Positions 5,071 to 64,000 of a stretch of 64,000 bases of DNA are shown in pieces; the first letter of the stretch is position 1; every line of letters begins with the position of its first letter. A program made the translations under genes and the position numbers. The stretch is from Caldicellulosiruptor hydrothermalis 108 (GTDB lineage Bacteria; Bacillota; Thermoanaerobacteria; Caldicellulosiruptorales; Caldicellulosiruptoraceae). Under the pieces are notes generated by a model. That model worked only from the letters and a program-made list of their open reading frames with translations. It was not told the origin of the DNA and made no database searches. The stretch is from positions 1,499,001-1,563,000 of the forward strand of contig NC_014652.1 in the NCBI RefSeq assembly GCF_000166355.1. The letters are read 5' to 3'.

Positions 5071-5403
5071 CTACAATGCTGCAATCTCAACCTTTTGAGC
5101 ATCTATCCACAATCGTTCAAGGTTATAAAATTCTCTCTCTTTTTCGTGGAAGATATGAAGAATTATATCACCAAAATCTATAACAACCCACCTGAAACTT
5201 TCTTTTCCTTCAACTCTCAATATATGCACTGGTTCTTTTTCCTCTATTTCATCTACAATTGCTTTCACGTGCTGAACATTTGATGCACTGCATATAATAA
5301 AATAGTCAGCTATTATGGTTAGCTTTGAAATGTCCAAAACCACTATATCCTGAGCTTTTTTGTCAGATAGGAGTTTTACAATCTCATATATTTTTTGTTC
5401 CAA
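5071..5403 (-). CDS. rsfS: Ribosomal silencing factor RsfS
   Basis: 110 residues, the full length of the RsfS/YbeB/Iojap family, with the family core ADYFIICSASNVQHVKAIVD and the FRWVVIDFGDIILHIFHEKER segment. RsfS binds L14 of the 50S subunit and blocks subunit joining under nutrient limitation. The start is TTG, preceded by GGGGTGA. The location between the LCP gene and leuS, downstream of nadD-yqeK, matches the common Firmicute order. Confidence 0.95.
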   Translation of the reverse strand: MEQKIYEIVKLLSDKKAQDIVVLDISKLTIIADYFIICSASNVQHVKAIVDEIEEKEPVHILRVEGKESFRWVVIDFGDIILHIFHEKEREFYNLERLWIDAQKVEIAAL

Positions 5404-5425
5404 TTTGCTTTTTTCACCCCTTTTT

Positions 5426-6637
5426 TTATTTTACTTTAATATAAATATCATACTTTTCCTCATAGTCTGGTGAATAAACCACCTGAAAAGTTGAAAGGTC
5501 AATGTCATTTCTTAATTGCTCAAGATATTTTCTGTTAATTCTCTTTAGCTCAATTGTAGAATTTTGAATACTCTTTTGACTTCCCAACCCCACATTTACA
5601 TATCCTCTTGACTCAAGCTCACTTTTAAGCAAAGCTGCCTTTTCGCTACCACTTTCTCCTATCACTTTTATTCTGATATTCTCCTTTATTATCTCTGGCT
5701 CATTTAAATCTTCAACAAGCTGTTTGCATTTCTCTTCATCCAATATATAGTAAGAAACATTATCAATATACTTAGGATAGCCCGGTAGTACAGCTGTCAT
5801 TATATTTTGGCTACTGAATTTACCTGCATTTTGGACAAACCAAATCATCTCATTTCTTGTAAAATTGTGGTCCACGTACTTTGTAGCTGTTTGGATAATA
5901 CTTGGAAGTTTTATAAGGTTTTGTGGTTTTAATACCTTTTCAATCAAAGCAAACACAAATTTTTTCTGCATCTCAATTCTACCCAAATCTCCGCCTCTGC
6001 CATACTCTTTGCCGTTTGAATTGTGTCGCCAGCGCAAAAACTCAACTGCCTTTTCCCCATCCAAATGTTGAAGACCTGCAGGGATATCTATAAAAAGCTC
6101 TTTGCCCGGTGTTGTATCTTTGTAATATAAATGAAAAGGAACTTCAACATCCACTCCACCAACTGCGTCAACAATTTTTTTGACCGCTTCATAATTTAGG
6201 GCAACATATCTGTCAATTTTTACGCCCAGAAGATCTTCTACAGTTTTTATGGCCAGCTTTGACTTGCCATAGGCATATGCAGCATTGATTTTTGAATATC
6301 CTCTTATACCCTCTATCTTTACTCTTGTATCCCTTGGAATAGAAATAATAACTGGTTGGAAATCTTTCTGGATACGGACAAGCATTATGGTGTCTGACCT
6401 TCCACCTTCTTTTTCATCTCCTCCAAGAACCAAAATGTTCATTGGCAAATTATTCTCAAGCCCGTTTGTCTCAGTATTTGTAACCTTTTCAATGAGACTA
6501 TTTATTATTGGCGGAAGTGCCTTTGTATTTTTATAATACAAAGCTGTTGCAACAATGAGCAAAAATATAACTGCTACAGTAGCCAAAAAAGATGCCAAAA
6601 ACATTTTTGCTTCTTTCTTGATTCGTATCTTCTTCAC
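5426..6637 (-). CDS. LytR-CpsA-Psr (LCP) family cell-wall ligase with LytR_C domain
   Basis: 403 residues from a GTG start. One N-terminal membrane helix is followed by the LCP catalytic domain (NILVLGGDEKEGGRSDTIMLV, then ISIPRDTRVKI, then FLRWRHNS) and a C-terminal LytR_C-like domain (about 310-400). LCP proteins transfer undecaprenyl-linked anionic polymers to peptidoglycan on the outer face. I chose GTG at 6637 because it overlaps the yqeK stop as GTGA and places the basic KKIRIKKEAK stretch at the N-terminus. A TTG at 6670 would add 11 residues. A second LCP gene lies at 12869-14242. Confidence 0.9.
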   Translation of the reverse strand: MKKIRIKKEAKMFLASFLATVAVIFLLIVATALYYKNTKALPPIINSLIEKVTNTETNGLENNLPMNILVLGGDEKEGGRSDTIMLVRIQKDFQPVIISIPRDTRVKIEGIRGYSKINAAYAYGKSKLAIKTVEDLLGVKIDRYVALNYEAVKKIVDAVGGVDVEVPFHLYYKDTTPGKELFIDIPAGLQHLDGEKAVEFLRWRHNSNGKEYGRGGDLGRIEMQKKFVFALIEKVLKPQNLIKLPSIIQTATKYVDHNFTRNEMIWFVQNAGKFSSQNIMTAVLPGYPKYIDNVSYYILDEEKCKQLVEDLNEPEIIKENIRIKVIGESGSEKAALLKSELESRGYVNVGLGSQKSIQNSTIELKRINRKYLEQLRNDIDLSTFQVVYSPDYEEKYDIYIKVK

Positions 6638-7212
6638 CTTACTTCCCCGCTTTCTCGTAATATAAGCCAATTTCTTGCATAAATAGTATTGGGATGTATT
6701 AATCCACCACGGTCAATTACATACTTTAAAGTATTATCCATAGCCATCACAACTGCTTTTTCTAAATCTTCAAACGATTTTTCCCTCAGTTTTTCTACCT
6801 GTTCAAATTGTCTTGAAGGCTCAATCAAATCTGCTACATATATTATCTTTTCTAACTTTGACATATTTTCTCTTCCAGTTGTATGATATGCAATAGCATT
6901 TAAGATGTCAACATCTTCTATTCCAAAGAGCTTTCTTGCCAAATAACTTCCAGCAGGACCGTGTAAAAGCTCTATTTGACTTCGCATAATGTTATCTATA
7001 ACTATACCAGATTTCAAGGCACAATTCAACAACTGCTGCTTATCAAGGCACTTTGCAACATCATGAACAAGACCTGCAATCATTGCTTTTTGTACATCTT
7101 CGCCAAACCTTTCAGCAAGCTTTACTGCACACTCCATTGTTCCAATCGAATGCACGTACCTTTTCTCATCCAAAAGTTCTTTTAATTTATCTTTAATCTG
7201 TTCAATTTTCAC
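6634..7212 (-). CDS. yqeK: YqeK-type HD-domain dinucleoside tetraphosphate hydrolase
   Basis: 192 residues with the HD-domain signature: an early His region (VHSIGTMECAVKLAERFG), the metal-binding HD pair in GLVHDVAKCLD, and a later His in LHGPAGSYLARKLFG. YqeK enzymes split Ap4A symmetrically to two ADP. The GTG start overlaps the nadD stop by four bases (GTGA), and its own stop overlaps the LCP start in the same way, so nadD, yqeK and the LCP gene are probably translationally coupled. The nadD-yqeK-rsfS context is conserved in Firmicutes. Confidence 0.93.
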   Translation of the reverse strand: MKIEQIKDKLKELLDEKRYVHSIGTMECAVKLAERFGEDVQKAMIAGLVHDVAKCLDKQQLLNCALKSGIVIDNIMRSQIELLHGPAGSYLARKLFGIEDVDILNAIAYHTTGRENMSKLEKIIYVADLIEPSRQFEQVEKLREKSFEDLEKAVVMAMDNTLKYVIDRGGLIHPNTIYARNWLILRESGEVR

Positions 7213-7799
7213 CTTTTGTAAAGCCCCTTTCTCTTAATATATTCTTCCACCTTTGGATGAACCATATATCTTATACTTTTGTTCTGGCGAATTAGTTTTC
7301 TTATCTCTGTTGAAGATATATCAACAATAGGCATCTGAATCAAAGTAATCTCTTGAGCATATTTAGAAGAAAGCTTTTCTATTTCCTTTTTTATCGCACA
7401 CAAATCTCTTTCTCGTGGAAGAACAATAAGAGGGTATCTTCTTAAAATCTCTTCTGCCTTGTACCACTTCACTATCTCTGAAAGATTGTCGCTTCCAATA
7501 ATAAAATATACTCTTTCATAAATAGATGAAAAATACTCAAGCGTATCTATCGTCCAGCTTGGTCCACTTTTTTTGATTTCAAAGTCGCTTATATCAAAAT
7601 ATGGATTATCTTCTATTGAAAGCTTAACCATTTCAAACCTGTCGCTCGCATCTGCTACATCTTCAATCTTGTGCGGAGGATGTCCATTGGGGACAAATAT
7701 AACCTTTTGCACTTGCGAAAAATTCAAAACATACTGAGCCATAATTAGATGTCCAATGTGAATGGGATTAAAAGTACCACCAAACAAAGCTACCTTCAT
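7209..7799 (-). CDS. nadD: Nicotinate-nucleotide adenylyltransferase
   Basis: 196 residues. The nucleotidyltransferase signature FGGTFNPIHIGHLIMAQ sits at the N-terminus and the C-terminal DISSTEIRKLIRQ carries the second substrate-binding motif. It converts nicotinate mononucleotide to deamido-NAD, the step after NadC. The nadABC genes are about 36 kb away in this window. The start has AAGGAG seven bases upstream. It heads the operon ending in leuS. Confidence 0.95.
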   Translation of the reverse strand: MKVALFGGTFNPIHIGHLIMAQYVLNFSQVQKVIFVPNGHPPHKIEDVADASDRFEMVKLSIEDNPYFDISDFEIKKSGPSWTIDTLEYFSSIYERVYFIIGSDNLSEIVKWYKAEEILRRYPLIVLPRERDLCAIKKEIEKLSSKYAQEITLIQMPIVDISSTEIRKLIRQNKSIRYMVHPKVEEYIKRKGLYKR

Positions 7800-7886
7800 T
7801 CACAGACTCCTTGAAAAATTCTTCATATCTAAGATATTATAATAAAATAAATCCCTTTAAATCTCAAGAAAATTTAAGTTAGCTCA

Positions 7887-7915
7887 TTGCATAATTATTC
7901 ATTTAGGTGTATAAT
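7887..7915 (+). promoter_or_regulatory. argGH promoter
   Basis: TTGCAT (7887-7892), a 17-base spacer, then a perfect TATAAT (7910-7915), about 40 bases before the argG ATG. The weak -35 box overlaps the ARG-box-like palindrome, so a bound repressor would exclude RNA polymerase. Confidence 0.7.
7888..7901. promoter_or_regulatory. ARG-box-like operator (ArgR/AhrC site)
   Basis: TGCATAATTATTCA differs at one position from the perfect palindrome TGAATAATTATTCA, the typical half-site pair of an ARG box. It covers the -35 region of the only promoter visible upstream of argG. Repression by arginine-bound ArgR is inferred; no argR gene is in the window. Confidence 0.6.
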
Positions 7916-7956
7916 TTTATAAAACCAATTAAATCATGTGAGGGGAGATAAAGAAA

Positions 7957-9174
7957 ATGAAACTGAACAAAGTGGTCTTGGCATATTCAGGTGGACTTGA
8001 TACCTCAGTCATTATTCCCTGGCTTAAAGAAAACTTTGACTGTGAAGTAATTGCCGTGGTTGTTGATGTAGGACAGGAAGATGACTTTGAAGCCATAAAA
8101 GAAAAAGCTTACAAGACGGGTGCTTCAAAAGTTTACATCGAAGATGCCAAAGAAGAGTTTGTGAATGAATATATATTCCCCACTTTGAAAGCTGGAGCTA
8201 TATATGAAGGAAAATATCTGCTTGGAACATCAATGGCAAGACCTTTAATTGCCAAGAAACTGGTCAATATCGCGAAAAAAGAAAACGCTGATGCAATAGC
8301 GCACGGTGCAACAGGAAAAGGAAACGACCAGGTAAGATTTGAAGTGACAATTAAAGCGCTTATGCCACAAATAAAGATAATAGCTCCTTGGCGAATTTGG
8401 AATTTAAAATCGCGCGAGGATGAGCTCAATTATCTTGCCCAAAAAGGAATTGATATTCCTTTTAAAAAAGAAGAAAGTTACAGCATGGACGGGAACATAT
8501 GGCATCTTTCTCATGAAGGGCTTGACTTAGAAGACCCATGGAACATGCCTGACTTTGATAAGGTATTAAAGATTACAAAAAATCCTCTTAAACTTGCTGA
8601 CTCTCCAGAGACTGTGGAGATTGAATTTGAAAAAGGAATTCCTGTGAAGGTAAACGGTCAGCAAATGAATGGAGTTGAACTTTTGAAAACTTTGAACAAA
8701 ATAGGGGCAAATCATGGAATTGGCATTGCGGACATAGTTGAAAACAGGCTTGTTGGAATGAAATCGCGCGGCGTGTATGAAACCCCTGGCGGAACAATTC
8801 TTTATTATGCTCACAGGGAATTGGAATACCTCTGCCTTGACAGAGCTACTTTGCATTTTAAAGACATGGTTGCAATTAGATTTGCTGAACTTGTTTATGA
8901 TGGGCTTTGGTTTTCACCGTTAAGAGAAGCACTTTCAGCATTTGTTGACAAAACCCAAGAGGTTGTAAATGGCACAGTAAAACTCGTGCTGTACAGAGGT
9001 AATATTTACTCTGCTGGTTCAAAATCACCAAATTCGCTATATATCAAAGACCTTGCAACCTTTGAAGAAGACCAGATGTACAATCAAAAGGATGCGGAAG
9101 GATTTATAAACCTGTTTGGCTTGCCTTTGAAGGTATTTGGAATGGTGAACAGAAAGGAGGATGAGGAGAATTAA
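7957..9174 (+). CDS. argG: Argininosuccinate synthase
   Basis: 405 residues. The PP-loop ATP motif [15 protein letters not shown] is at the N-terminus, followed by [13 protein letters not shown] and the EGLDLEDPW region. It condenses citrulline and aspartate with ATP to argininosuccinate, the penultimate step of arginine synthesis. GAGGGGAGA precedes the ATG. It overlaps argH by 14 bases and is probably co-transcribed with it from the ARG-box promoter. Confidence 0.98.
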
Positions 9175-54238: not shown

Positions 54239-55075
54239 TCACAAATTCAAATTCAAACTCAAATTCATACTCCCTGTTCTGTACCCCTCTAAATCTAAAG
54301 TAATATACAAAAAACCTAACTCTTTAAACTTATTCCTAACACTCTCTATTAACTTAATATCTAAAAACTTCTCCATCTCATCCTTACCTATTTCTATTCG
54401 TGCAAGTTTATCTTGATGATACCTTACCCTCACCTGCTTAAACCCAAGTCCAAGTAAATATTCCTCAGCTTTTTCTATCATGCTTAATTTTTCTTTTGTT
54501 ATTCTTTCTCCGTAAGGTATGCGTGAAGAAAGGCATGCAAAGGCAGGTTTGTCCCATGTTGGAAGTCCCAACTCTTTTGACAATTTCCTAATATCCTCTT
54601 TTGTAAGCCCAGCAACTTTAAGTGGACTTACAACGTTAAGCTCACATGCCGCCTTCATGCCAGGTCTAAAATCGTTCAAATCATCAAAGTTTGAACCATC
54701 CGCAACATACTCAATTCCATGTGCCTTTGCTACTTTCCATATCTTTTCAAAAAGCTCCTTCTTGCAGTAATAGCATCTATCAACAGGGTTTTTATTGAAT
54801 CCCTCAATTTCAAGCTCTTCTGATTCTATGACTATGTGTTTTGCTCCTATTTGTTTTATGAATGTTATTGCATCATTGAGTTCTCTTTTTGGATAGGTTG
54901 AGGATGTTGCAGTCACGGCAATAACTCTATCTCCTAAAACATCATAAGCAACTTTGACTAAAAAGGTACTATCAACTCCACCTGAATAAGCAATTGCAAG
55001 GCTTCCTAAGCTTTTGATATAGTTTTTTAATTTTTCATATTTTTCTTGTAATGTTTCATCTATTATGATATCCAT
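54239..55075 (-). CDS. larE: LarE-like ATP-dependent sulfur transferase (PP-loop)
   Basis: 278 residues. The PP-loop AYSGGVDSTFLVKVAYDV is followed by RCYYCKKELFEKI and KPAFACLSSRIPYG, where the ACL cysteine corresponds to the sacrificial Cys of Lactobacillus LarE. With C-x-x-C plus this residue there are three cysteines, as in [4Fe-4S]-dependent LarE proteins. It sulfurates the nickel-pincer cofactor precursor of lactate racemase. larB, larC and larA are absent here. The C-terminus ends in an odd SLNLNL repeat encoded by tandem CAAATT-like units. ATG follows CAGGAGGG. Confidence 0.88.
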   Translation of the reverse strand: MDIIIDETLQEKYEKLKNYIKSLGSLAIAYSGGVDSTFLVKVAYDVLGDRVIAVTATSSTYPKRELNDAITFIKQIGAKHIVIESEELEIEGFNKNPVDRCYYCKKELFEKIWKVAKAHGIEYVADGSNFDDLNDFRPGMKAACELNVVSPLKVAGLTKEDIRKLSKELGLPTWDKPAFACLSSRIPYGERITKEKLSMIEKAEEYLLGLGFKQVRVRYHQDKLARIEIGKDEMEKFLDIKLIESVRNKFKELGFLYITLDLEGYRTGSMNLSLNLNL

Positions 55076-55100
55076 AAAATTACCCTCCTGTATGTTATTG

Positions 55101-55127
55101 TACTAAATTATTTAGATAGATTTAGTA
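55101..55127. promoter_or_regulatory. Palindrome in the larE leader
   Basis: TACTAAAT (55101-55108) and ATTTAGTA (55120-55127) are perfect inverted copies, 11 bases apart, between the larE promoter and its ATG. It could be an operator or a leader hairpin; I recognise no regulator consensus. Confidence 0.4.
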
Positions 55128-55134
55128 TAAATTT

Positions 55135-55163
55135 ATTTTACACGTCTCCTTTTATTCTATCAA
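55135..55163 (-). promoter_or_regulatory. larE promoter
   Basis: TTGATA (55158-55163), a 17-base spacer and TAAAAT (55135-55140) on the minus strand, in the 132-base gap after hemL. Confidence 0.6.
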
Positions 55164-55207
55164 CATCTTTTTAAACACTCTAAGTTAACTACAAGACGTT
55201 GTTCTTA

Positions 55208-56488
55208 TCATTTCCTTTTTGAAGAGCAAAATTCCTCAGCAATTTCAACGAATTTTTCTACATCATTTTCGCTATGTGCTACAGATAAGAACATCGCTTC
55301 AAATTGAGAGGAAGGAACATAAATATGGTTTTTTATCATATATTCTGCAAAACTTCTGAACAAGTCTAAATCGCTCATCTTTGCCATCTCGAAATTTTCT
55401 ACCTTTTCAACTCCAAAGAAGATTGTTAGCATTGAACCTACCCTGTTTATGCAAAAAGTTAAATTGGAATTAGAAAAGACTTGTGTCAACTCTTTTTCGA
55501 GTTTTCCTGCTAACATCTCCAAATTACCATAAAAATGAGGATTTTCTTTAAGCTTTTTGATAGTAGCGTACCCTGCACTCATCACAATTGGATTGCCCGA
55601 CATAGTACCTGCCTGAAAGACATTTCCTTGTGGTGCTAAGCACTGCATAATCTCTTTTTTGCCACCAACTGCGCCGCAAGGAAGCCCCCCGCCAATTATC
55701 TTTCCAAAAGTTATAAGGTCCGGCTCAACATCATATAAAGCTCTTGCACCTTTCAGTGAAAGTCTAAAACCGGTTATTACTTCATCAAAAATCAGAAGAC
55801 TGCCGTGGAGGTTGCAAATTTCTCTTAGGGCTTGCAAAAACTCTTTTTTGGCAGGTACAACACCCATATTCCCTGCCACAGGCTCGATTATAACAGCTGC
55901 TATCTCATCTTTGTTTTCTTTAAAAGCTTTTTCTACTGAATCTAAATTGTTGTATTCAACCACAATTGTATTTTGTACAATATCTTCATCAATTCCCTTT
56001 AATCTTAGCTCGGCTACTGCTGACCCTGCTTCTTTCAGAAAGATGTCATGATGACCATGATAACAGCCTGCAAACTTTACTATTTTTTTCTTCCCAGTAT
56101 AACCTTTTGCAAGCCTTACAGCAGTCATTGTAGCTTCTGTCCCTGAATTAACAAATCGAACCATATCAATTTGGGCTGTCTCACACACAAGCTTTGCCAT
56201 CTTATATTCAATTTCTGTTGGTGCTCCAAATGCTATTTGATCTTCCACCACTTCTTTTATGCTATTTACAACATCAGGGTCACAATGTCCTAATATCATC
56301 GCACCCCAGGACAGAACAAAATCAATATATTCATTGCCATCAATATCAAATATACGGCAGCCTTTTCCTTTTGAGATGACTGGCGGGGTAATACTCAAAT
56401 TTTTAAAGGCACGAATTGGACTGTTAACCCCGCCTGGTATATATCTTTTGGTCTTGTCAAATACTTCTTTACTTTTGTCAAGTCTCAT
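55208..56488 (-). CDS. hemL: Glutamate-1-semialdehyde 2,1-aminomutase
   Basis: 426 residues. PGGVNSPIRAFKNL at the start and the PLP lysine in DLITFGKIIGGGLPCGAVGG are diagnostic. It converts glutamate-1-semialdehyde from HemA to 5-aminolevulinate. AAAGGAG precedes the ATG, two bases after hemB. Last gene of the tetrapyrrole run. Confidence 0.97.
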   Translation of the reverse strand: MRLDKSKEVFDKTKRYIPGGVNSPIRAFKNLSITPPVISKGKGCRIFDIDGNEYIDFVLSWGAMILGHCDPDVVNSIKEVVEDQIAFGAPTEIEYKMAKLVCETAQIDMVRFVNSGTEATMTAVRLAKGYTGKKKIVKFAGCYHGHHDIFLKEAGSAVAELRLKGIDEDIVQNTIVVEYNNLDSVEKAFKENKDEIAAVIIEPVAGNMGVVPAKKEFLQALREICNLHGSLLIFDEVITGFRLSLKGARALYDVEPDLITFGKIIGGGLPCGAVGGKKEIMQCLAPQGNVFQAGTMSGNPIVMSAGYATIKKLKENPHFYGNLEMLAGKLEKELTQVFSNSNLTFCINRVGSMLTIFFGVEKVENFEMAKMSDLDLFRSFAEYMIKNHIYVPSSQFEAMFLSVAHSENDVEKFVEIAEEFCSSKRK

Positions 56489-56490
56489 TT

Positions 56491-57468
56491 TTAAAGCTCC
56501 TTTCCATTCAATATCCTTGCAGCTTCTAAAGCATGGTATGTTATAATCGCATCAGCACCTGCCCTCTTTATTGCAGTCAATATCTCAATTACAACCTCTT
56601 CTTCATTCAAAAAACCCAATTTGCCTGCACTTTTTACCATGGCATACTCGCCGCTAACATTATAAGCTATAATAGGAATATTGAATTTCTCTTTTGCCAC
56701 AGAAATTACATCAAGTGATGTCAAGGCAGGTTTTATAATTACAGCATCGGCGCCTTCTAAAATGTCAGCTTCTATCTCTCGCAGAGCTTCTCTTTTGTTT
56801 TGATATGGCATTTGATAACTTTTTCTGTCGCCAAAAGCAGGCCGTGAGTTTGCTACATCTCTAAATGGTGCATAAAGTGAGGAGGCAAACTTTGCACTGT
56901 ATGGTATGATGGGAGTATAAACAAATCCGTGACTGTCAAGCTTTTTTCGGATAGCGGCAACCCTTCCGTCCATCATATCAGATGGACAAATTATGTCTGC
57001 CCCTGCTTTTGCATAAGATAATGCTATCTCGCCTAAAACCTCTATTGTCTTATCATTATCTATTTTATCACCTTTCAAAATACCACAATGTCCATGTGAT
57101 GTGTACTCACAAAGGCACACATCTGCAAACACCAATATATCTTCGGAATATTCTTTTATTTTCCTTATTGCCTGCTGGACTGCCCCATCATCCTTGGTAG
57201 CATAACTGCCCATCTCATCTTTCTGTGAAGTCACACCAAATAAAATTACACCGCCAATGTCAGCTTTCTTGATCTCATCCAAAATTTCATGTAGTCTGTC
57301 AACAGATACCTTCACAATGCCATCTAATTGCGGCATTCTTTCAAACACGTTTTTACCATCATCAACAAACAGGGGAAAAATAAACCCTTTGCTGTAAAGT
57401 CTTGTTTCATAAAAAAGTTCTCTTAAAGCCTTAGTCTGTCTTAACCTTCTCAATCTTTTAAACTCCAT
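56491..57468 (-). CDS. hemB: Porphobilinogen synthase (zinc type)
   Basis: 325 residues. The zinc cysteines lie in FADVCLCEYTSHGHCG, and the two active-site lysines in YSAKFASSLYAPFRD and AVIIKPALTSLDVI. It condenses two 5-aminolevulinates. Its start is 11 bases inside the cobA-hemD gene, with AGAGGTGG upstream. Confidence 0.97.
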   Translation of the reverse strand: MEFKRLRRLRQTKALRELFYETRLYSKGFIFPLFVDDGKNVFERMPQLDGIVKVSVDRLHEILDEIKKADIGGVILFGVTSQKDEMGSYATKDDGAVQQAIRKIKEYSEDILVFADVCLCEYTSHGHCGILKGDKIDNDKTIEVLGEIALSYAKAGADIICPSDMMDGRVAAIRKKLDSHGFVYTPIIPYSAKFASSLYAPFRDVANSRPAFGDRKSYQMPYQNKREALREIEADILEGADAVIIKPALTSLDVISVAKEKFNIPIIAYNVSGEYAMVKSAGKLGFLNEEEVVIEILTAIKRAGADAIITYHALEAARILNGKEL

Positions 57469-58933
57469 TTTTGACCACCTCTAAAATCTTATTTACTATT
57501 CCCTCATCGGTTGCCTCATTACTAATGATACTTTTAATACCGAAACTTTCCAATGTCTTTTGGGTATGCTCACCAATTGAAATAACTATTTTATTAGAAA
57601 GCACTTCAACCCCATAGCATTCTATAAAGTGTCTAAACATTCCTGAGCTTGTGAATACAAATATGTCTGAATCGTAAACTGCATCATTTGGGTTTTTAGT
57701 AAATTCCATTGAATATGCAAAGATGGTATCAACCTCAAATCCCAAGCTTTCAAGGGAATTTTTGAGGTAATCTCCTGCATTTTTTGACTGCACAGTCAAT
57801 ATCTTTTTGCTTTTATCAACTTCATTCTCGAAAATCTTGATCAAACCATCTGATGAATGTTCATCTGGAATATATTTTACCCTAAATCCTCTCTTTTGGA
57901 GTGAAAGTGCAGTTTTTTTACCTATTGCAGCAAAGTCACCTTTAATATTTCTCACATCTATATTTTTTTCAATCAAGTAGTCAAAAAAACTATCAACACC
58001 ATTTACACTCGTAAATACCAATATATTGTATTCAGGCAAAGAGTTTAAAATTTTATCAATCTCCTCCCTATGGAGAACCAGTTTTGAGCAGCAACCATCA
58101 ACAACGTCCGCACCAAGACTGAATAGCAAACTTTTTATATTCCTTGAGACATTTTTGGGACGTGTGATACAAACTCTTTTACCAAATAAAGGCAAATTCT
58201 CATAAAAAGAAAGCTTATTTCTAAATTTTATAACCTCACCTATCACAAATACCATTGGCGATGCAATTTGATTTTTAGACTTTCCACTTGCAAAGTCTTC
58301 TAAATACCCGCTAATTACTTTCTGCCGACCAGTTGTTGCATTAATTACTGCTGCAGCAAGAGTTTGAGGCTGTTTGCCGTGTAAAATCAGTTTTTGTGAG
58401 ATACTTTCAATATTTTCGGCAGACATGAGAAATATTAAAGTTCCATCAAGTTTAGAAATTATGTTCCAATTCAGTTCTTTATCATCGCACGTGTGCCCAG
58501 TAAACACATGAAATTCACGTGCAAGCTTTCTATACGTGATAGGAATACCCGCAAAGGTTAAAGCAGAGTAAAATGAACTAACACCAGGAATAATCTCAAA
58601 AGGTATGTTATTTTCAAATAGTTTTTCTGCCTCTTCTGCTCCCCTTCCAAATATATATGGGTCTCCACCTTTTAGCCGAACAACATTAAAACCTTTTTTT
58701 GCATACTCTATCATCAAGTTTATAATTCTGTCCTGAGAAAGTACATGTTTTTTTGGTTCTTTACCACAGTAGATATAAATTGCATCATCTTTTGCAAGCT
58801 TCAACAAATTTTTGTTTATTAACCTATCGTAAATTATTACATCAGCAGTTTTTATAGCATTCAGACACTTTACTGTTATCAAGTCCTCCATGTATGGACC
58901 AGCCCCAACAATATATACCTTTCCAACTTTCAA
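57458..58933 (-). CDS. CobA-HemD fusion: uroporphyrinogen-III methyltransferase and synthase
   Basis: About 491 residues from a TTG start nine bases after AGGAGG. The N-terminal half (about 1-240) is a SUMT: VYIVGAGPYMEDLITVKCLN, RLKGGDPYIFGRGAEEAEKL and PGVSSFYSALTFAGIPITYR. The C-terminal half (about 250-491) is a uroporphyrinogen-III synthase (GKRVCITRPKNVSRNIKSLL, FAAIGKKTALSL, VFTSSGMF). It closes hydroxymethylbilane to uro'gen III and methylates it twice to precorrin-2. Such fusions are common in Clostridia. The upstream extension to 58966 includes the ribosome site. Confidence 0.93.
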   Translation of the reverse strand: MKVGKVYIVGAGPYMEDLITVKCLNAIKTADVIIYDRLINKNLLKLAKDDAIYIYCGKEPKKHVLSQDRIINLMIEYAKKGFNVVRLKGGDPYIFGRGAEEAEKLFENNIPFEIIPGVSSFYSALTFAGIPITYRKLAREFHVFTGHTCDDKELNWNIISKLDGTLIFLMSAENIESISQKLILHGKQPQTLAAAVINATTGRQKVISGYLEDFASGKSKNQIASPMVFVIGEVIKFRNKLSFYENLPLFGKRVCITRPKNVSRNIKSLLFSLGADVVDGCCSKLVLHREEIDKILNSLPEYNILVFTSVNGVDSFFDYLIEKNIDVRNIKGDFAAIGKKTALSLQKRGFRVKYIPDEHSSDGLIKIFENEVDKSKKILTVQSKNAGDYLKNSLESLGFEVDTIFAYSMEFTKNPNDAVYDSDIFVFTSSGMFRHFIECYGVEVLSNKIVISIGEHTQKTLESFGIKSIISNEATDEGIVNKILEVVKNGV

Positions 58934-58983
58934 TATACTAATCCTCCTTTGGAAAATTAACTTCACACAAGTCTTACCATAAA

Positions 58984-59856
58984 CTAACTTTCAAGCATCT
59001 TACTTAGCTTATTTGCAAGAGACAAAAAGTCAGCTTTGTCACCCTCAATACTTGCTTTTACTAATTTATCACCTCTTAAAAGGGAAGCAAATGCATAAAT
59101 TTTGTCCTGGTCTGTTTTACAAAAAACACCAATCGACGAATGACACCCTCCTCCCAAAAACTTCAAAACAAGCCTTTCAAACTGGGTTTGGATATATGCA
59201 TTAACATCGTTTATTTTACTTAAGATGCTTTTATAGGGACTATCTTTAAGGCACTCAATGCATATTGCCCCCTGACCAGGGCAAGGTGTAATTTCATTTA
59301 TATCAAAAATATAACTTACATAAGAATCTAAGTTTAACCGCTTTAGTGCAGCATAGGCAACTATAACTCCATCAAGCCCTTCTGACTCAATCTTTGAAAG
59401 TCGTGTTTCTATATTGCCTCTTATATTAACAACTTGTATATCTTCTCTTAAATTTTTTAAATGTACCTCTCTTCTTAAACTACTTGTTCCAATTTTTGCG
59501 TTTGGCTTTAGCTGGTAGAATCCCACACCATCTTTTGATACAAGCACATCTCTGGGATCCTCTCTTTCAACAACTGCCACAATCTCAAAATTACTGTCTA
59601 TTTCACAAGGCAAGTCCTTTAGACTGTGCACAGCTAAATCTATTTCCCTCGTTAAAAGTGCACGTTCAATCTCTTTTACAAATACACCTGGACTTTTAAA
59701 GTCTTTTAGGCTTTTTGTTTTGTCAATATCTCCTTTTGTTTTTATAGGAACAAATTCACATTCAATACCTAAGGTTTGCTTGATTTTTCTTGCCACAATA
59801 TCAACTTGAATTCTGCTGAGTCTGCTGTCCCTTGCGCCAATTCTTAACTTTTTCAT
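58984..59856 (-). CDS. hemC: Hydroxymethylbilane synthase
   Basis: 290 residues. The dipyrromethane-anchoring Cys is in FLGGGCHSSIGVF, with RIGARDSRLSRIQVDIVARK and VHSLKDLPCEID in the first two domains. It polymerises four porphobilinogens. The ATG overlaps the sirC-like stop as ATGA with GAGGTGA upstream. Confidence 0.97.
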   Translation of the reverse strand: MKKLRIGARDSRLSRIQVDIVARKIKQTLGIECEFVPIKTKGDIDKTKSLKDFKSPGVFVKEIERALLTREIDLAVHSLKDLPCEIDSNFEIVAVVEREDPRDVLVSKDGVGFYQLKPNAKIGTSSLRREVHLKNLREDIQVVNIRGNIETRLSKIESEGLDGVIVAYAALKRLNLDSYVSYIFDINEITPCPGQGAICIECLKDSPYKSILSKINDVNAYIQTQFERLVLKFLGGGCHSSIGVFCKTDQDKIYAFASLLRGDKLVKASIEGDKADFLSLANKLSKMLES

Positions 59857-60527
59857 CTTGTCACCTCAAAATTTAAAACATCTTCGTAAAACAATTCTAT
59901 AATCTTATTAGCATATCCTTTTTTGAAAAAATAATAAAAGTCATCTGAACAAACGAATTCCAATATTTGGTCCTTTTGTGGATGATGCTTTAATTTTTCT
60001 CTCAAATCAGTTGCCCATTTGCAGAACATGGCAAAACTCTGAAGAAAATTGAGAACTTTCTGTGTAAGATATTTCGAAAGTTTCGGATTTCCCCTATTTA
60101 TTGACAAGCTAAAAACAAATTCATCAGTTCTTTTTTGAGCACCAAGTCTTAAGTTTCCGAGCTTATAATCTGAGCACACCAGATATAGTTTATTTAGTCT
60201 TTTGCAGTGCCAGATAATTCTTTTTTCAAGCTTTCTGTTTGACACCCCAATTACAACTATGTGCTTATCCTTTAAAAAACTTTTGCGAAATTTCCCTCTT
60301 TTGAGTTTTAGATATCCACTTTTCAACTCTCTGAAGCCTATATCAAACCTTGTCGATAAAACTTCAACCTTGCAACCAGCTCCTAAAAAGGTTTTGGTTT
60401 TTATCAAAGAAGCTTTTCCTGCTCCTATAACCCCCACCTTAATGTTATTTGCTACAAGTCCAATATGCATAAGATTTTCAAAGCCTGAATCTATTTCAAG
60501 AATATCCTCTTTATCAGGTTTGAGCAA
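59853..60527 (-). CDS. Divergent SirC/CysG-N-like precorrin-2 dehydrogenase
   Basis: 224 residues. A Rossmann motif ([20 protein letters not shown]) and [20 protein letters not shown], the counterpart of the AISTxGxSPxLA segment, place it in the CysG N-terminal/Met8/SirC family. It should oxidise precorrin-2 to sirohydrochlorin. The conserved Thr-Asp-Asp region, which includes the catalytic Asp of CysG and Met8p, is replaced by GVSNRKLEK, so ferrochelatase activity is doubtful. The TTG start lies 37 bases inside hemA; an internal ATG at Met20 is an alternative. Position between hemA and hemC supports the role. Confidence 0.82.
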
Positions 60528-61675
60528 ATTTCACCACTTCCCTCTTTGTGTGCCTCTCTTAAAACCTCAATTGCCCTATCAATATATAGATTTGCCATCC
60601 TTATCAAGACGCTTTCAATTTTTTCTATTTCTTCGCTATCAACATTCTTTAGATACTTCACCTGCATTCTGCCCAATTCCTCTGCGTGCTTTTTCATATC
60701 CATAATTAAGCCTTTATATTTCCTAAACTCAAGCCAATCAATAAACTCATCAACATATTTCTCAATTATATGGTAATTCTCTTGCATCTTGGAAATCCTA
60801 AATTCCCTGTTAATGGTATCTATCTTATGAACTTGGTCTATATCAATCACTTTAACGTTCGGAAGTTTATACACCTCAACATCCACATCTCTTGGTACAG
60901 CAAGGTCAAATATGAGCAGATTTTTTCCCTCTGGTATATCATCTTTGTGGACAACTGCATGTGGCGCAGATGTTGAGCATATCAGGCATTGTGCTTCTGA
61001 GATTGCATCTTTTTTGTCGCTATACTCAAATTTTTCAGGATATAGCTTGACAAATTGGTCAATTCTCTCGTTTTTGCGCCCAATTAAAAATACTTTGTCC
61101 ACATCTGAGTTTTTAAAGTAGTTGCAAAATGAAAATCCAATATTTCCAAGTCCAATTATAGCAATTTTTCTGATATTTGATTCTTTCAAAACCTTTCCAA
61201 CAACTGATGCGATGGTGATGGGATGCTCGTTTAACCTTGACTTTGTTCGAAATTCCTTTGAACATTTTAAGGCAACCTCAAAAAGCCTTTCAAGGACTGG
61301 ATTTTTACCGCCCACCTGCTTCGCAATCTCTTTTGCTTCTTTTACCTGAGCAACAATTTGTTCTTCGCCAATTAAAAGTGAATCAAAGCCGCATACAACT
61401 TCAAATAGGTGTTTTATACAATCTTTGTCTTTGTAAATATAAAATAAATGCATATATCTCTTATCCCAGTCAAGTTCAGTGAATATTTTTTCTATGTCCA
61501 CATACTCTTCTGAAAAGAAGTAGATTTCTGTTCTGTTGCAGGTACTGAGAATTATGACTTCATTTGCTAATTTTTTTAAACTAATCAACTTTTCTTGTAA
61601 CTTGGTCTTTGTCAGAGAAAATTTTTGTCTGGTATCAACTTCTACTTTGTGATTGATTCCAATGATCCATAGCAC
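60491..61675 (-). CDS. hemA: Glutamyl-tRNA reductase
   Basis: 394 residues from a GTG start with GGAG ten bases upstream. [15 protein letters not shown] has the nucleophilic Cys, and [16 protein letters not shown] the NADPH motif; [20 protein letters not shown] is also typical. It reduces glutamyl-tRNA to glutamate-1-semialdehyde, the committed step. The C-terminal dimerisation helix is present. First gene of hemA-sirC-hemC-cobA/hemD-hemB-hemL. Confidence 0.97.
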
Positions 61676-62081: not shown

Positions 62082-62408
62082 TTACCTTTTAGGATACTCG
62101 ATGTCCAAATTAATATCAATTTTCTTCTTAGCCTCTCTTAAAAAAAGTTCTCCTTCTCTGGTAAGCTCATAATATGTGTGATTTCGATGCTTAACACTTT
62201 TTCGTCGACGATGGTAATATTTAACTATTCTTCTTTCCACTCGCTTGATAAGTCCTCTCTCCTCCAGACTTTGTAGTCGCTTTCTGGTTTCTTCCAAGGA
62301 TAAACCCAGACGTATCGCCAGAAGTTTTGCGTATTCCGGTCCAAGCTTTTTGAGGTAGGCAAGGATTGTTAAATCAAGAAGTTCATCTTGGTCATTCTTG
62401 ACCGGCAT
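62082..62408 (-). CDS. Winged-helix regulator (DUF2250-like)
   Basis: 108 residues. A helix-turn-helix spans about residues 10-60 (LTILAYLKKLGPEYAKLLAI, then RLGLSLEETRKRLQSLEERG) followed by a wing rich in Arg, Lys and His (RRIVKYYHRRRKSVKHRNH) and a TYYELTREGELFLREA segment as in MarR/ArsR-type regulators. AAGGAGATG precedes the ATG. It lies between the TatD-like gene and hemA and may control one or both; no operator is recognised. Confidence 0.8.
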   Translation of the reverse strand: MPVKNDQDELLDLTILAYLKKLGPEYAKLLAIRLGLSLEETRKRLQSLEERGLIKRVERRIVKYYHRRRKSVKHRNHTYYELTREGELFLREAKKKIDINLDIEYPKR

Positions 62409-62450: not shown

Positions 62451-63215
62451 TCAAATACCAAAAACTTCCTCAGCATTGTATCGTGAAATTCGACCAATGA
62501 GTTCTGAATAAGCTTGGTTTAATTCTAAGTATCGTACTGTCCTGGGCACGCTGAGAGGATCATTAGGTCTTAAATTGCTGTAATCGCTATTTAGTACACC
62601 TCGTTGGAAACGTTCCAGATAATTCAGCAACAGTTGAGGAGTAAGACCATCCTGGCGAATTGTAAGACCGGGCACAGCACCAAAGTCTTCGATTAAGTCA
62701 ATAATATCTAAATTAGCATGGTCTATTATCACTTTTCGGGGTTCTATTCCTACCTTAGCAGCAATTTCAATTGTTTTATTGGTAATTTCGACCCTGTTCT
62801 CTGGAGGAGTATGAAGGATTACTGCAGCCCCATATTCCTTGGCAATCTTCAATTGCTCATGGAGGACCTCCTGCTCCCGCTTGTTTCCCTCATGTAGCCC
62901 AATCTCACCAAGACCAATTACACCACTCATTTTAAGGTAGTCTGGAAGAGCGTCGATCACTCTGGTCCAATCATCCGGTATTCCCATGGGATGAATTCCA
63001 ATGGTAACGTAAAGCTTAATACCATTTTTGGCAGCAATACTCATAGAAAGAGTTAACATCTGATGGAAATGATCAAAGAGTGTTTCGGCATGTTTTGCTC
63101 CAAAAAATAGTGAGCAGCTAATAACTTTCTTTACTCCTGCCAGGGCCATATTTTCCCATCCCTCAAATGGAAGCAATGAAACATGTACATGAGAATCTAC
63201 AAATTCTTTCATCAT
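62451..63215 (-). CDS. TatD-like metal-dependent hydrolase
   Basis: 254 residues. The amidohydrolase metal motif is FVDSHVHVS at the N-terminus; later ligands are the Glu in IGLGEIGLHE, His in VILHTPPENR, and His in VIIDHANLDI. The insertion KHAETLFDHFHQMLTLSMSI and the C-terminal NAEEVFGI fit a TatD-related subfamily rather than TatD itself. The substrate is unknown. Base composition looks richer in G+C than the hem genes (25 of 60 at 62881-62940 against 17 of 60 at 58561-58620), a possible sign of transfer. Confidence 0.82.
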   Translation of the reverse strand: MMKEFVDSHVHVSLLPFEGWENMALAGVKKVISCSLFFGAKHAETLFDHFHQMLTLSMSIAAKNGIKLYVTIGIHPMGIPDDWTRVIDALPDYLKMSGVIGLGEIGLHEGNKREQEVLHEQLKIAKEYGAAVILHTPPENRVEITNKTIEIAAKVGIEPRKVIIDHANLDIIDLIEDFGAVPGLTIRQDGLTPQLLLNYLERFQRGVLNSDYSNLRPNDPLSVPRTVRYLELNQAYSELIGRISRYNAEEVFGI

Positions 63216-63255: not shown

Positions 63256-63642
63256 TCAAGGCTTGATATAAGCATACCCTTCTGCCTGTTTTCTTACAAT
63301 TTCTGTTATGCCAGCTGGCACAACCCTTACAAAATCGGGAATGCTCTCTTCATCGATAAGCTGCGCTTTGAGAGCATTCCGGCATGCTGTAAATTTCACT
63401 CCTACCTCTGATAATTTCTCCATCTGTTCCAAAAGCGACAAATTAGTTGATACATTGCACAAACTACCACTTTCAGCTTGCTGGCATTTATTTTTAAAAA
63501 TAGAAACTGCTTCGCCATTAATCACTACTTCAACGTTAGCATTGTTTTGCCCAACATCATTTAAAAAATTAGTGATATTAATGAGCACCATCTGCCACCT
63601 ACTAGATTCGTTGATATGGAAGAGCACCTTTAATTCGTTCAT
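63256..63642 (-). CDS. DsrE-like protein (COG1416 type)
   Basis: 128 residues from the ATG at 63642, which follows AAAGGAGGG. The DsrE-like fold shows in LKVLFHINESSRWQMVLINI and the conserved Cys in VKFTACRNALKAQ, where sulfur-relay relatives carry persulfide. VVPAGITEIVRKQAEGYAYI closes the domain. Its function is unknown, but it sits directly downstream of a siroheme/[4Fe-4S] domain protein, so a link to sulfur or nitrogen oxyanion reduction is plausible. Confidence 0.82.
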   Translation of the reverse strand: MNELKVLFHINESSRWQMVLINITNFLNDVGQNNANVEVVINGEAVSIFKNKCQQAESGSLCNVSTNLSLLEQMEKLSEVGVKFTACRNALKAQLIDEESIPDFVRVVPAGITEIVRKQAEGYAYIKP

Positions 63643-63722
63643 CCACTCCCTCCTTTCTGTCATCTTTTCAGTTACCCATGCGAAATGTTAAAAATATCTT
63701 TCCAAATCTTTACTTTTTCGCT

Positions 63723-64000
63723 TTATTTTAAAATACCATTTTTTCTAAGATACTCTGGTAACTGGTCCCCATCAATAACAACCATTTCGCCATTTTTATT
63801 ATATACCCATACTCTATCTTTTAAAACGACAACATTGTAATCTGCTTCCTTATCCATAGCACATGCATTACCACAACCACTGATAGTTATATTTCCTTGT
63901 AAATTGCCAGAGGATACTATGCGCTCAGCCATAGCATGGACATCACCAACGCCATTTTTGCAATAGCGCGCACCTATGCATGTCTTGATTCCTTCACTAT
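63723..64000 (-). CDS. Sulfite/nitrite reductase-like siroheme and [4Fe-4S] domain protein (partial)
   Basis: The last 92 codons are in the window and the frame stays open to the edge; the internal ATG at 63932 is not the real start. TCIGARYCKNGVGD and ISGCGNACAMDKEAD give Cys-x5-Cys-x28-Cys-x3-Cys, the signature that binds the [4Fe-4S] cluster bridged to siroheme in sulfite and nitrite reductases. A short beta-rich C-terminal part follows (VVVLKDRVWVYNKNGEMVVI). Whether it is a full reductase or a small siroheme protein cannot be seen. It is encoded upstream of the dsrE-like gene and the siroheme pathway. Confidence 0.82.
   Translation of the reverse strand, partial: SEGIKTCIGARYCKNGVGDVHAMAERIVSSGNLQGNITISGCGNACAMDKEADYNVVVLKDRVWVYNKNGEMVVIDGDQLPEYLRKNGILK

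Follow-up and report, generated by a model that had tools for sequence, protein, structure and literature searches.

At one end of the analysed window (the whole stretch of 64,000 nucleotides from the 2.77 Mb single-contig genome of Caldicellulosiruptor hydrothermalis 108; G000:C1:1499001-1563000), a reading frame that runs off the edge encodes four cysteines arranged like those of siroheme/[4Fe-4S] proteins. A sequence-only reading took them for a truncated siroheme domain, compact or divergent. Are they the remainder of a shortened sulfite reductase, or do they belong to something else?

The cysteine motif and its gene

The frame (63998-63723, reverse strand) is open up to the window end and encodes TCIGARYC...SGCGNAC. 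Its cysteine codons, at 63980-63978, 63962-63960, 63875-63873 and 63863-63861 on the reverse strand, confirm the motif C-x5-C-x28-C-x3-C. The full gene was read from L004, a 20 kb sequence around and past the window end. It is an ORF of 310 codons (L004:4723-5655:-, or window 63723 to 64655 in extended coordinates), named SIR310 here, whose start lies outside the window, as the sequence-only reading had stated, 655 bp past its end. The window part corresponds to the last 91 residues (220-310):

63723..64000, continuing to about 64655, reverse strand: D2 of SIR310, a predicted second NIR_SIR-like core with C226-x5-C232-x28-C261-x3-C265 (ORF, alignment, profile-profile comparison and predicted fold)

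Upstream of D2, the Pfam domains NIR_SIR_ferr (the ferredoxin-like half, residues 12-74) and NIR_SIR (PF01077, residues 84-213; 109.5 bits against a cut-off of 27) are recognised well over their cut-offs. This main domain, D1, has its own motif outside the window, C92-x4-C97-x33-C131-x3-C135, the first pair of which is unusual yet common to three other distinct sulfite reductase (SiR) motifs. The reductase domain proper is thus off the window with near-usual spacing (x4/x33/x3), and reading the full ORF rules out a truncated or compact reductase. Judging from alignment and modelling, the motif in the window is an additional, C-terminal iron-sulfur-type domain, the second on a near-normal small sulfite-reductase-like protein. 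What stands of the original proposal is a NIR_SIR-type four-cysteine motif in a divergent protein.

A frameshift or assembly artefact in the window is ruled out, as the identical full-length frame is present in other genomes. All eight cysteines of D1 and D2 are invariant in the 11 aligned members, namely the protein of the window and ten others 69-98% identical to it; since most residues next to the D2 cysteines are invariant as well, the motif cannot be ascribed to chance. Its gap is indeed short. An x28 gap is found in 12 of the 78 distinct motif matches among the collected relatives, 11 from the SIR310 family and one a false match to a ferredoxin motif. The other siroheme-type matches have gaps of at least x31 (10 AsrC-type matches have x31 and the rest x33-x39), bearing in mind that one x24 match is also a ferredoxin false match and that the C-x6 matches with x39 begin at an earlier cysteine. 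Two siroheme-type motifs are found in 15 of 81 distinct SiR-like ORFs, a set gathered mostly by likeness to SIR310; all 15 are SIR310, one being a frameshifted copy (G008). In four other ORFs of this set the second regex match is a ferredoxin motif, and two have no regex match.

Relationships and predicted fold of the second domain

Taken alone, D2 scores 14.7 bits against NIR_SIR, under the cut-off of 27, so that its relation to this family rests on profile-profile comparison and predicted fold. The profile-profile comparison of D2 with D1 gave 95.7% (E 8.4e-9, 33% identity over 63 columns). In a second run against several groups of cores, D2 matched group III (96.2%), AsrC (96.0%) and D1 (95.4%), followed by NirB (93.4), DUF1858-type (87.1), NirA (66.3) and small SiR (35.3) proteins. 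Because the best scores tie, both an internal duplication and the fusion of a core like that of AsrC or group III proteins are possible origins of D2.

The two cores differ in several features. D1 has a glycine-rich loop, YLGGKGGRQPQLGT, and a K-F-K ahead of its third cysteine, both of which are absent from D2; in the alignment, a short tail of its own after WVY replaces the loop and the subsequent helices. The Asn in C-x-N-x-C is retained in D2. We take the glycine-rich loop and K-x-K to be features expected for siroheme and anion binding in known enzymes. Nevertheless, K-x-K is also lacking before the third cysteine in the Cys-half of NirA-type proteins (16/16 proteins checked), so its absence from D2 does not by itself exclude siroheme.

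D2 is under purifying selection. Of 12 pairs compared over residues 217-310, 11 have a dN/dS of 0.06-0.31, with few changes counted (one pair rests on two changes), and in the twelfth dS is saturated. Within the genus of the window, D2 is looser than residues 1-216 (dN/dS 0.15-0.26 against 0.05-0.09, again from few changes).

An AlphaFold2 model of the Moorella sulfitireducens orthologue was built from 23 sequences (pLDDT 81.2, pTM 0.68). Its best structural matches are F420-dependent, dissimilatory and assimilatory sulfite reductases over approximately residues 1-240; they cover the SiR part and say little past residue 234, so the absence of D2 from them is no evidence. A model of D2 alone, from 7 sequences, reached pLDDT 83.0 and pTM 0.75. 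Foldseek found nothing under 1e-3 with it, the best match being IspG at 0.03. VIA-align superposed it on the [4Fe-4S] domain of IspG (Z 9.1, 2.6 A, 85 aligned residues) and on the Cys-half of spinach nitrite reductase (Z 9.1, 2.8 A, 86 aligned), on a scale where unrelated tRNA-synthetases score 5.8-6.6 and the best Z is typically 7-8 when there is no clear match. The predicted fold of D2 is therefore a moderate match to a NIR_SIR-type cluster domain.

Family placement and distribution of SIR310

The sequence-only reading would have been set aside by a full-length alignment placing the protein squarely in a characterised reductase family with normal spacing. The comparisons point the other way. 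At E up to 0.1, Pfam recognises only NIR_SIR, NIR_SIR_ferr, GcpE and DGC in SIR310, and the protein is under the cut-off of every NCBIfam family that it matches, mostly by far: NirB (TIGR02374, the best match; 135.2 against 578.35 bits), AsrC (TIGR02912; 56.8 against 324.1, the ferredoxin insert also being absent), DsrA (TIGR02064; 47.3 against 392.85), DsrB (TIGR02066; 32.6 against 341.5) and IspG (TIGR00612; 26.4 against 280.25, with 31.5 against 32 for Pfam GcpE, PF04551). A motif search found no ferredoxin-type C-x2-C-x2-C-x3-C in SIR310, unlike in AsrC and group III proteins. Of the four Arg/Lys that bind sulfite, Group I Dsr-like proteins have three or four. In SIR310, Arg87, Lys123 and Lys125, presumably equivalent to the sulfite-binding residues of CysI and Dsr, are invariant in the aligned members. 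His23 occupies what we presume to be the first of these positions, and it and Ala54 stand where, as we understand it, basic residues close to the heme are frequent in other SiRs; the substrate may therefore differ.

In a tree of 60 proteins and 202 main-domain columns, where group labels other than AsrC are presumed from length, motifs and what is typical of these families, the SIR310 proteins are monophyletic (100/99) and separate from AsrC, group III and NirA. They fall on the side of the small SiR, DUF1858-type and NirB proteins (91/85). Three small SiR proteins join them with weak support (89/61), at a node flagged as a meeting of long branches.

The family is rare and conserved. Homologues were sought with D2 and a few preceding residues (E <= 0.001) in 398 genomes drawn from the phylum, that of the window included. 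Matches were found in 21 of them: 11 full-length SIR310 frames, one remnant (G366) and nine weak matches to other NIR_SIR domains. The frame of G266 has its usual start codon out of frame with the remainder, and this copy may be impaired. In the class sample, 8 of 37 genomes matched (four full-length frames, the frameshifted G008, remnants in G023 and G033, and one weak match). A scan of a collection of 84,980 species with two 8-residue patterns, which divergent members escape and in which records close to the genome of the window are possibly absent, gave 22 loci. Six are SIR310, from Moorella sulfitireducens, M. stamsii, Desulfovirgula thermocuniculi, a Thermanaeromonas MAG and two Clostridiales bins; the remaining 16 are actinobacterial two-half proteins, classed as NirA-type by their make-up.

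The aligned SIR310 proteins of the window and of the presumed Moorella genomes share 83% identity, far above the 51-54% of HemB in that genus, which suggests that the family has spread partly by horizontal transfer. This signal is not clear for G194 (69% against 59% for HemB). None of 72,556 plasmid records (E <= 1e-20) and none of 50,697 phage records covers 80% of SIR310; three of the eight plasmid matches listed and two of the five phage matches listed are annotated as NirB, the others being otherwise annotated or unannotated.

Genomic context and possible roles of SIR310

SIR310 is followed in the window by several genes on the same strand:

63256..63663, reverse strand: DsrE-like protein, 135 aa (PF02635, 44.6 bits against 22.7), 59 nt downstream of SIR310
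62451..63215, reverse strand: TatD-like metal-dependent hydrolase, 254 aa (PF01026, 58.6 bits against 27), 40 nt downstream of the DsrE-like gene
62082..62408, reverse strand: winged-helix DUF2250 protein, 108 aa (PF10007, 63.8 bits against 24.4), 42 nt downstream of the TatD-like gene
60491..61675, reverse strand: a gene we take to be hemA-like, 406 nt from the DUF2250 gene and first of a presumed siroheme/heme precursor cluster reaching a hemL-like gene at 55208 (ORFs)

The context was compared across 13 distinct SIR310 loci, 10 outside the genus of the window and three within it (G000, G001 and G008; G005 and G010 were left out). The DsrE-like gene, whose product has an invariant cysteine in CRNA (8/8 aligned homologues), adjoins SIR310 in 12 of the 13, the exception being G038. 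The TatD-like gene is nearby in 10; it is absent from the K_7_2_bin.50 locus and from those of M. stamsii and the Thermanaeromonas MAG; the latter two loci start less than 1.4 kb from the end of a contig. The DUF2250 protein, likely a regulator, follows the module in 3/3 loci of the genus and in 0/10 outside it; its gene is also found downstream of asrABC in three genomes with a decayed SIR310.

In the genome of the window, the module runs asrA-asrB-asrC-SIR310-DsrE-TatD-DUF2250; starting at asrC, successive genes are separated by 121, 59, 40 and 42 nt. Three other genomes, G023, G033 and G366, keep asrABC with only a fragment of SIR310. These decayed fragments (L104, L105 and L106) lie between asrC and a DsrE-, TatD- or DUF2250-like gene, which suggests that the full operon was once present there. 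In G008 (L107), asrABC is missing between a LysR gene and SIR310, which is itself frameshifted within D2; the two seem to be in the course of being lost together. Outside the genus, none of the 10 full-length SIR310 loci adjoins asrABC, and a full AsrC over its cut-off is encoded in just 6 of the 12 genomes with a full-length SIR310 frame. Since asrABC also persists where SIR310 has decayed, a direct partnership with AsrABC is not obligatory, and the idea of SIR310 as an obligate AsrABC subunit is weakened. In G005 (L007), asrC appears shortened at its start, matching profile positions 44-314 only.

Several other observations concern the surroundings of the module. Downstream of it in the window (54239-61675) lie what we take to be genes for tetrapyrrole precursors and for a LarE-like protein, and similar genes stand directly ahead of asrABC in G366 (L104). 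L004:9915-17276, located outside the window at a distance of approximately 5 to 12 kb from its end, holds genes for CysD sulfate adenylyltransferase, a CysN-like protein, an AprA-type adenylyl-sulfate reductase with a ferredoxin (AprB-like), and MetY-, TusA- and JAB-like proteins, several of these names being presumed; AprAB would thus stand in an assimilatory-looking setting. The same cluster encodes a second sulfite reductase, ferredoxin-bearing, of 304 aa and 36% identical to SIR310 over the core. No RNA family was found at gathering scores in the 20 kb of L004.

Six of the 10 loci outside the genus hold a RACo-like ASKHA protein in the cluster. Its short frames begin at or near the linker, without the N-terminal [2Fe-2S] domain (two members were tested by Pfam and the others placed by PF14574 coordinates); such a neighbour scores 449.9 against 800 bits for the corrinoid activator AcsV (NF040756), aligned from profile position 121. 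One of the six, in G266, is split by approximately 1.9 kb (L096, ~5362-8600), and the G266 module, with its SIR310 start out of frame, may be decaying. No short RACo-like gene stands beside SIR310 in the 3/3 loci of the window's genus; these genomes have a single RACo, which is of greater length and encoded elsewhere, its N-terminal cluster motif having been seen in L110. Nor is there a SiR match near the short RACo genes of 14/14 further loci, some of which have LysR-, YeiH-, DsrE- or TatD-like genes. RACo as an obligate partner of SIR310 is weakened by both results. RACo-like ATPases without the [2Fe-2S] domain also occur near YeiH-like genes at L109:5176-10571 (by eye), L135:4635-7693 and L139:6067-10136, in regions that also have LysR, DsrE-like or sulfite reductase genes. 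In PH28_bin88, a LysR gene and a Cons_hypoth698 gene, which we take to be of YeiH type, lie beside SIR310. YeiH and the LysR regulator YeiE are tied to sulfite stress in Salmonella in the part of PMC12880088 drawn on here. From gene context, a role in sulfite response is possible for this branch of RACo-like ATPases.

What, then, would D2 do? The reading favored here is that SIR310 is a small siroheme sulfite reductase in which a duplicated or captured core, D2, serves as a built-in [4Fe-4S] relay, to which a probability of slightly under one half (about 0.47) is given. D1, with its ferredoxin-like half and NIR_SIR domain, would bind a coupled siroheme-[4Fe-4S] centre and reduce sulfite or a related sulfur oxyanion there. 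D2, a NIR_SIR core deprived of the post-core loop, would bind a [4Fe-4S] cluster without siroheme and would conduct electrons, the same job as that of the ferredoxin-type inserts of AsrC, Dsr and group III Dsr-like proteins; the DsrE-like carrier encoded alongside would probably receive the sulfur product. We infer the cofactors, the direction of electrons, the substrate and the hand-over to DsrE, and the D2 site could also be occupied by siroheme or another metal, or be empty. Furthermore, the ferredoxin motif is also missing from the small and DUF1858-type SiRs in the collection, so a built-in relay is not obligatory for such proteins.

The capacity of other small SiRs to manage without a relay also suits a different use of D2, as a structural, docking or redox-sensing Fe-S domain for the DsrE-like or another partner, outside electron flow. 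The near-constant DsrE-like neighbour and the resemblance of the predicted fold to IspG would agree with this, yet the four invariant cysteines of D2 are ordered as in an ordinary SiR cluster motif and SIR310 has no other relay motif, and such a use seems unlikely. Alternatively, the working siroheme-cluster pair could be carried by D2 itself, with D1 providing the anion-binding Lys/Arg as the two halves of NirA and CysI do, in a one-chain pseudo-dimer minus one ferredoxin-like half. Where NirA-type Cys-halves lack K-x-K, an R-K-F/Y-K stands in another part of the ORF (the other half, for the segments inspected), a division mirrored in SIR310 by the Asn kept in D2 and by the K-F-K and Arg87 of D1. 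Nevertheless, D2 has neither a ferredoxin-like half of its own nor the glycine loop that follows the D1 core, and this arrangement is given a low probability.

Two further explanations concern the protein as a whole. SIR310 might be the Fe-S electron partner of the RACo-like ATPase, which would drive the ATP-dependent, low-potential reduction of a siroheme or another centre, SIR310 not being the catalyst of sulfite reduction. The presence of the short gene in the cluster at most non-genus loci and its beginning at the RACo linker would suit an ATPase short of its own [2Fe-2S] domain; since the gene is missing beside SIR310 in the window's genus and its other loci are devoid of SiR matches, we find this quite improbable. 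The bolder combination of a new sulfite-reductase architecture, with a relay made from a duplicated catalytic core in place of an added ferredoxin, and a Moorella-type, ATP-boosted module fed by a RACo-like activator lacking its own iron-sulfur domain is likewise a long shot. SIR310 could finally be an ordinary small assimilatory sulfite reductase whose end carries a relict duplication of no importance. Its main domain is a clear NIR_SIR protein, and the gene looks dispensable, with fragments in three genomes and a frameshift in another; but a relict would hardly keep its cysteines invariant down to 69% overall identity under purifying selection, and this explanation is very improbable.

SIR310 can be set against several known systems. 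Its closest outside relatives by main domain are the siroheme part of NirB and the small SiRs linked to what we take to be DUF1858 (32-37% identity at the loci of the latter); those proteins have a single cluster motif and other added domains. AsrC shares the NIR_SIR fold and is encoded next to SIR310 in the genus of the window, but differs in its ferredoxin insert, its separate place in the tree and a family cut-off that SIR310 falls far short of. The C-terminal [4Fe-4S] domain of IspG, a NIR_SIR-like domain with a cluster and without siroheme, has a fold like that predicted for D2, whereas D2 has four cysteines and is fused to a reductase domain, and SIR310 is under the IspG cut-offs. By sequence features, the nearest described kind is that of the Group I Dsr-like proteins, with the small assimilatory sulfite reductase Dv-alSir, a class defined in PMC3448663. 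In the part of that paper drawn on here, these are NIR_SIR proteins with a coupled siroheme-[4Fe-4S] motif and no ferredoxin insert. SIR310 agrees in its invariant C92/C97/C131/C135 and its lack of a ferredoxin domain, and departs from the class in its C-x4-C first pair and in the extra four-cysteine core at its C-terminus, invariant in 11/11 aligned members, where a single cluster motif would be expected. A two-motif SiR was not noticed in the open-access literature at the level of titles and abstract starts, and no description was found there, within the same reach, of a sulfite-handling module of SIR310 with DsrE, TatD, asrABC or RACo-like genes. SIR310 recurs with a DsrE-like carrier, with a TatD-like hydrolase, and with asrABC or a RACo-like ATPase devoid of a ferredoxin domain, an association that would mark such a module in anaerobes. 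The extra clusters named in the same part of PMC3448663 are of ferredoxin type only, and siroheme reductases are proposed there to gain relay clusters by fusion of ferredoxin units; a second siroheme-cluster core in SIR310 would represent another route to relay clusters and illustrate how a catalytic cluster fold is turned into a wire.
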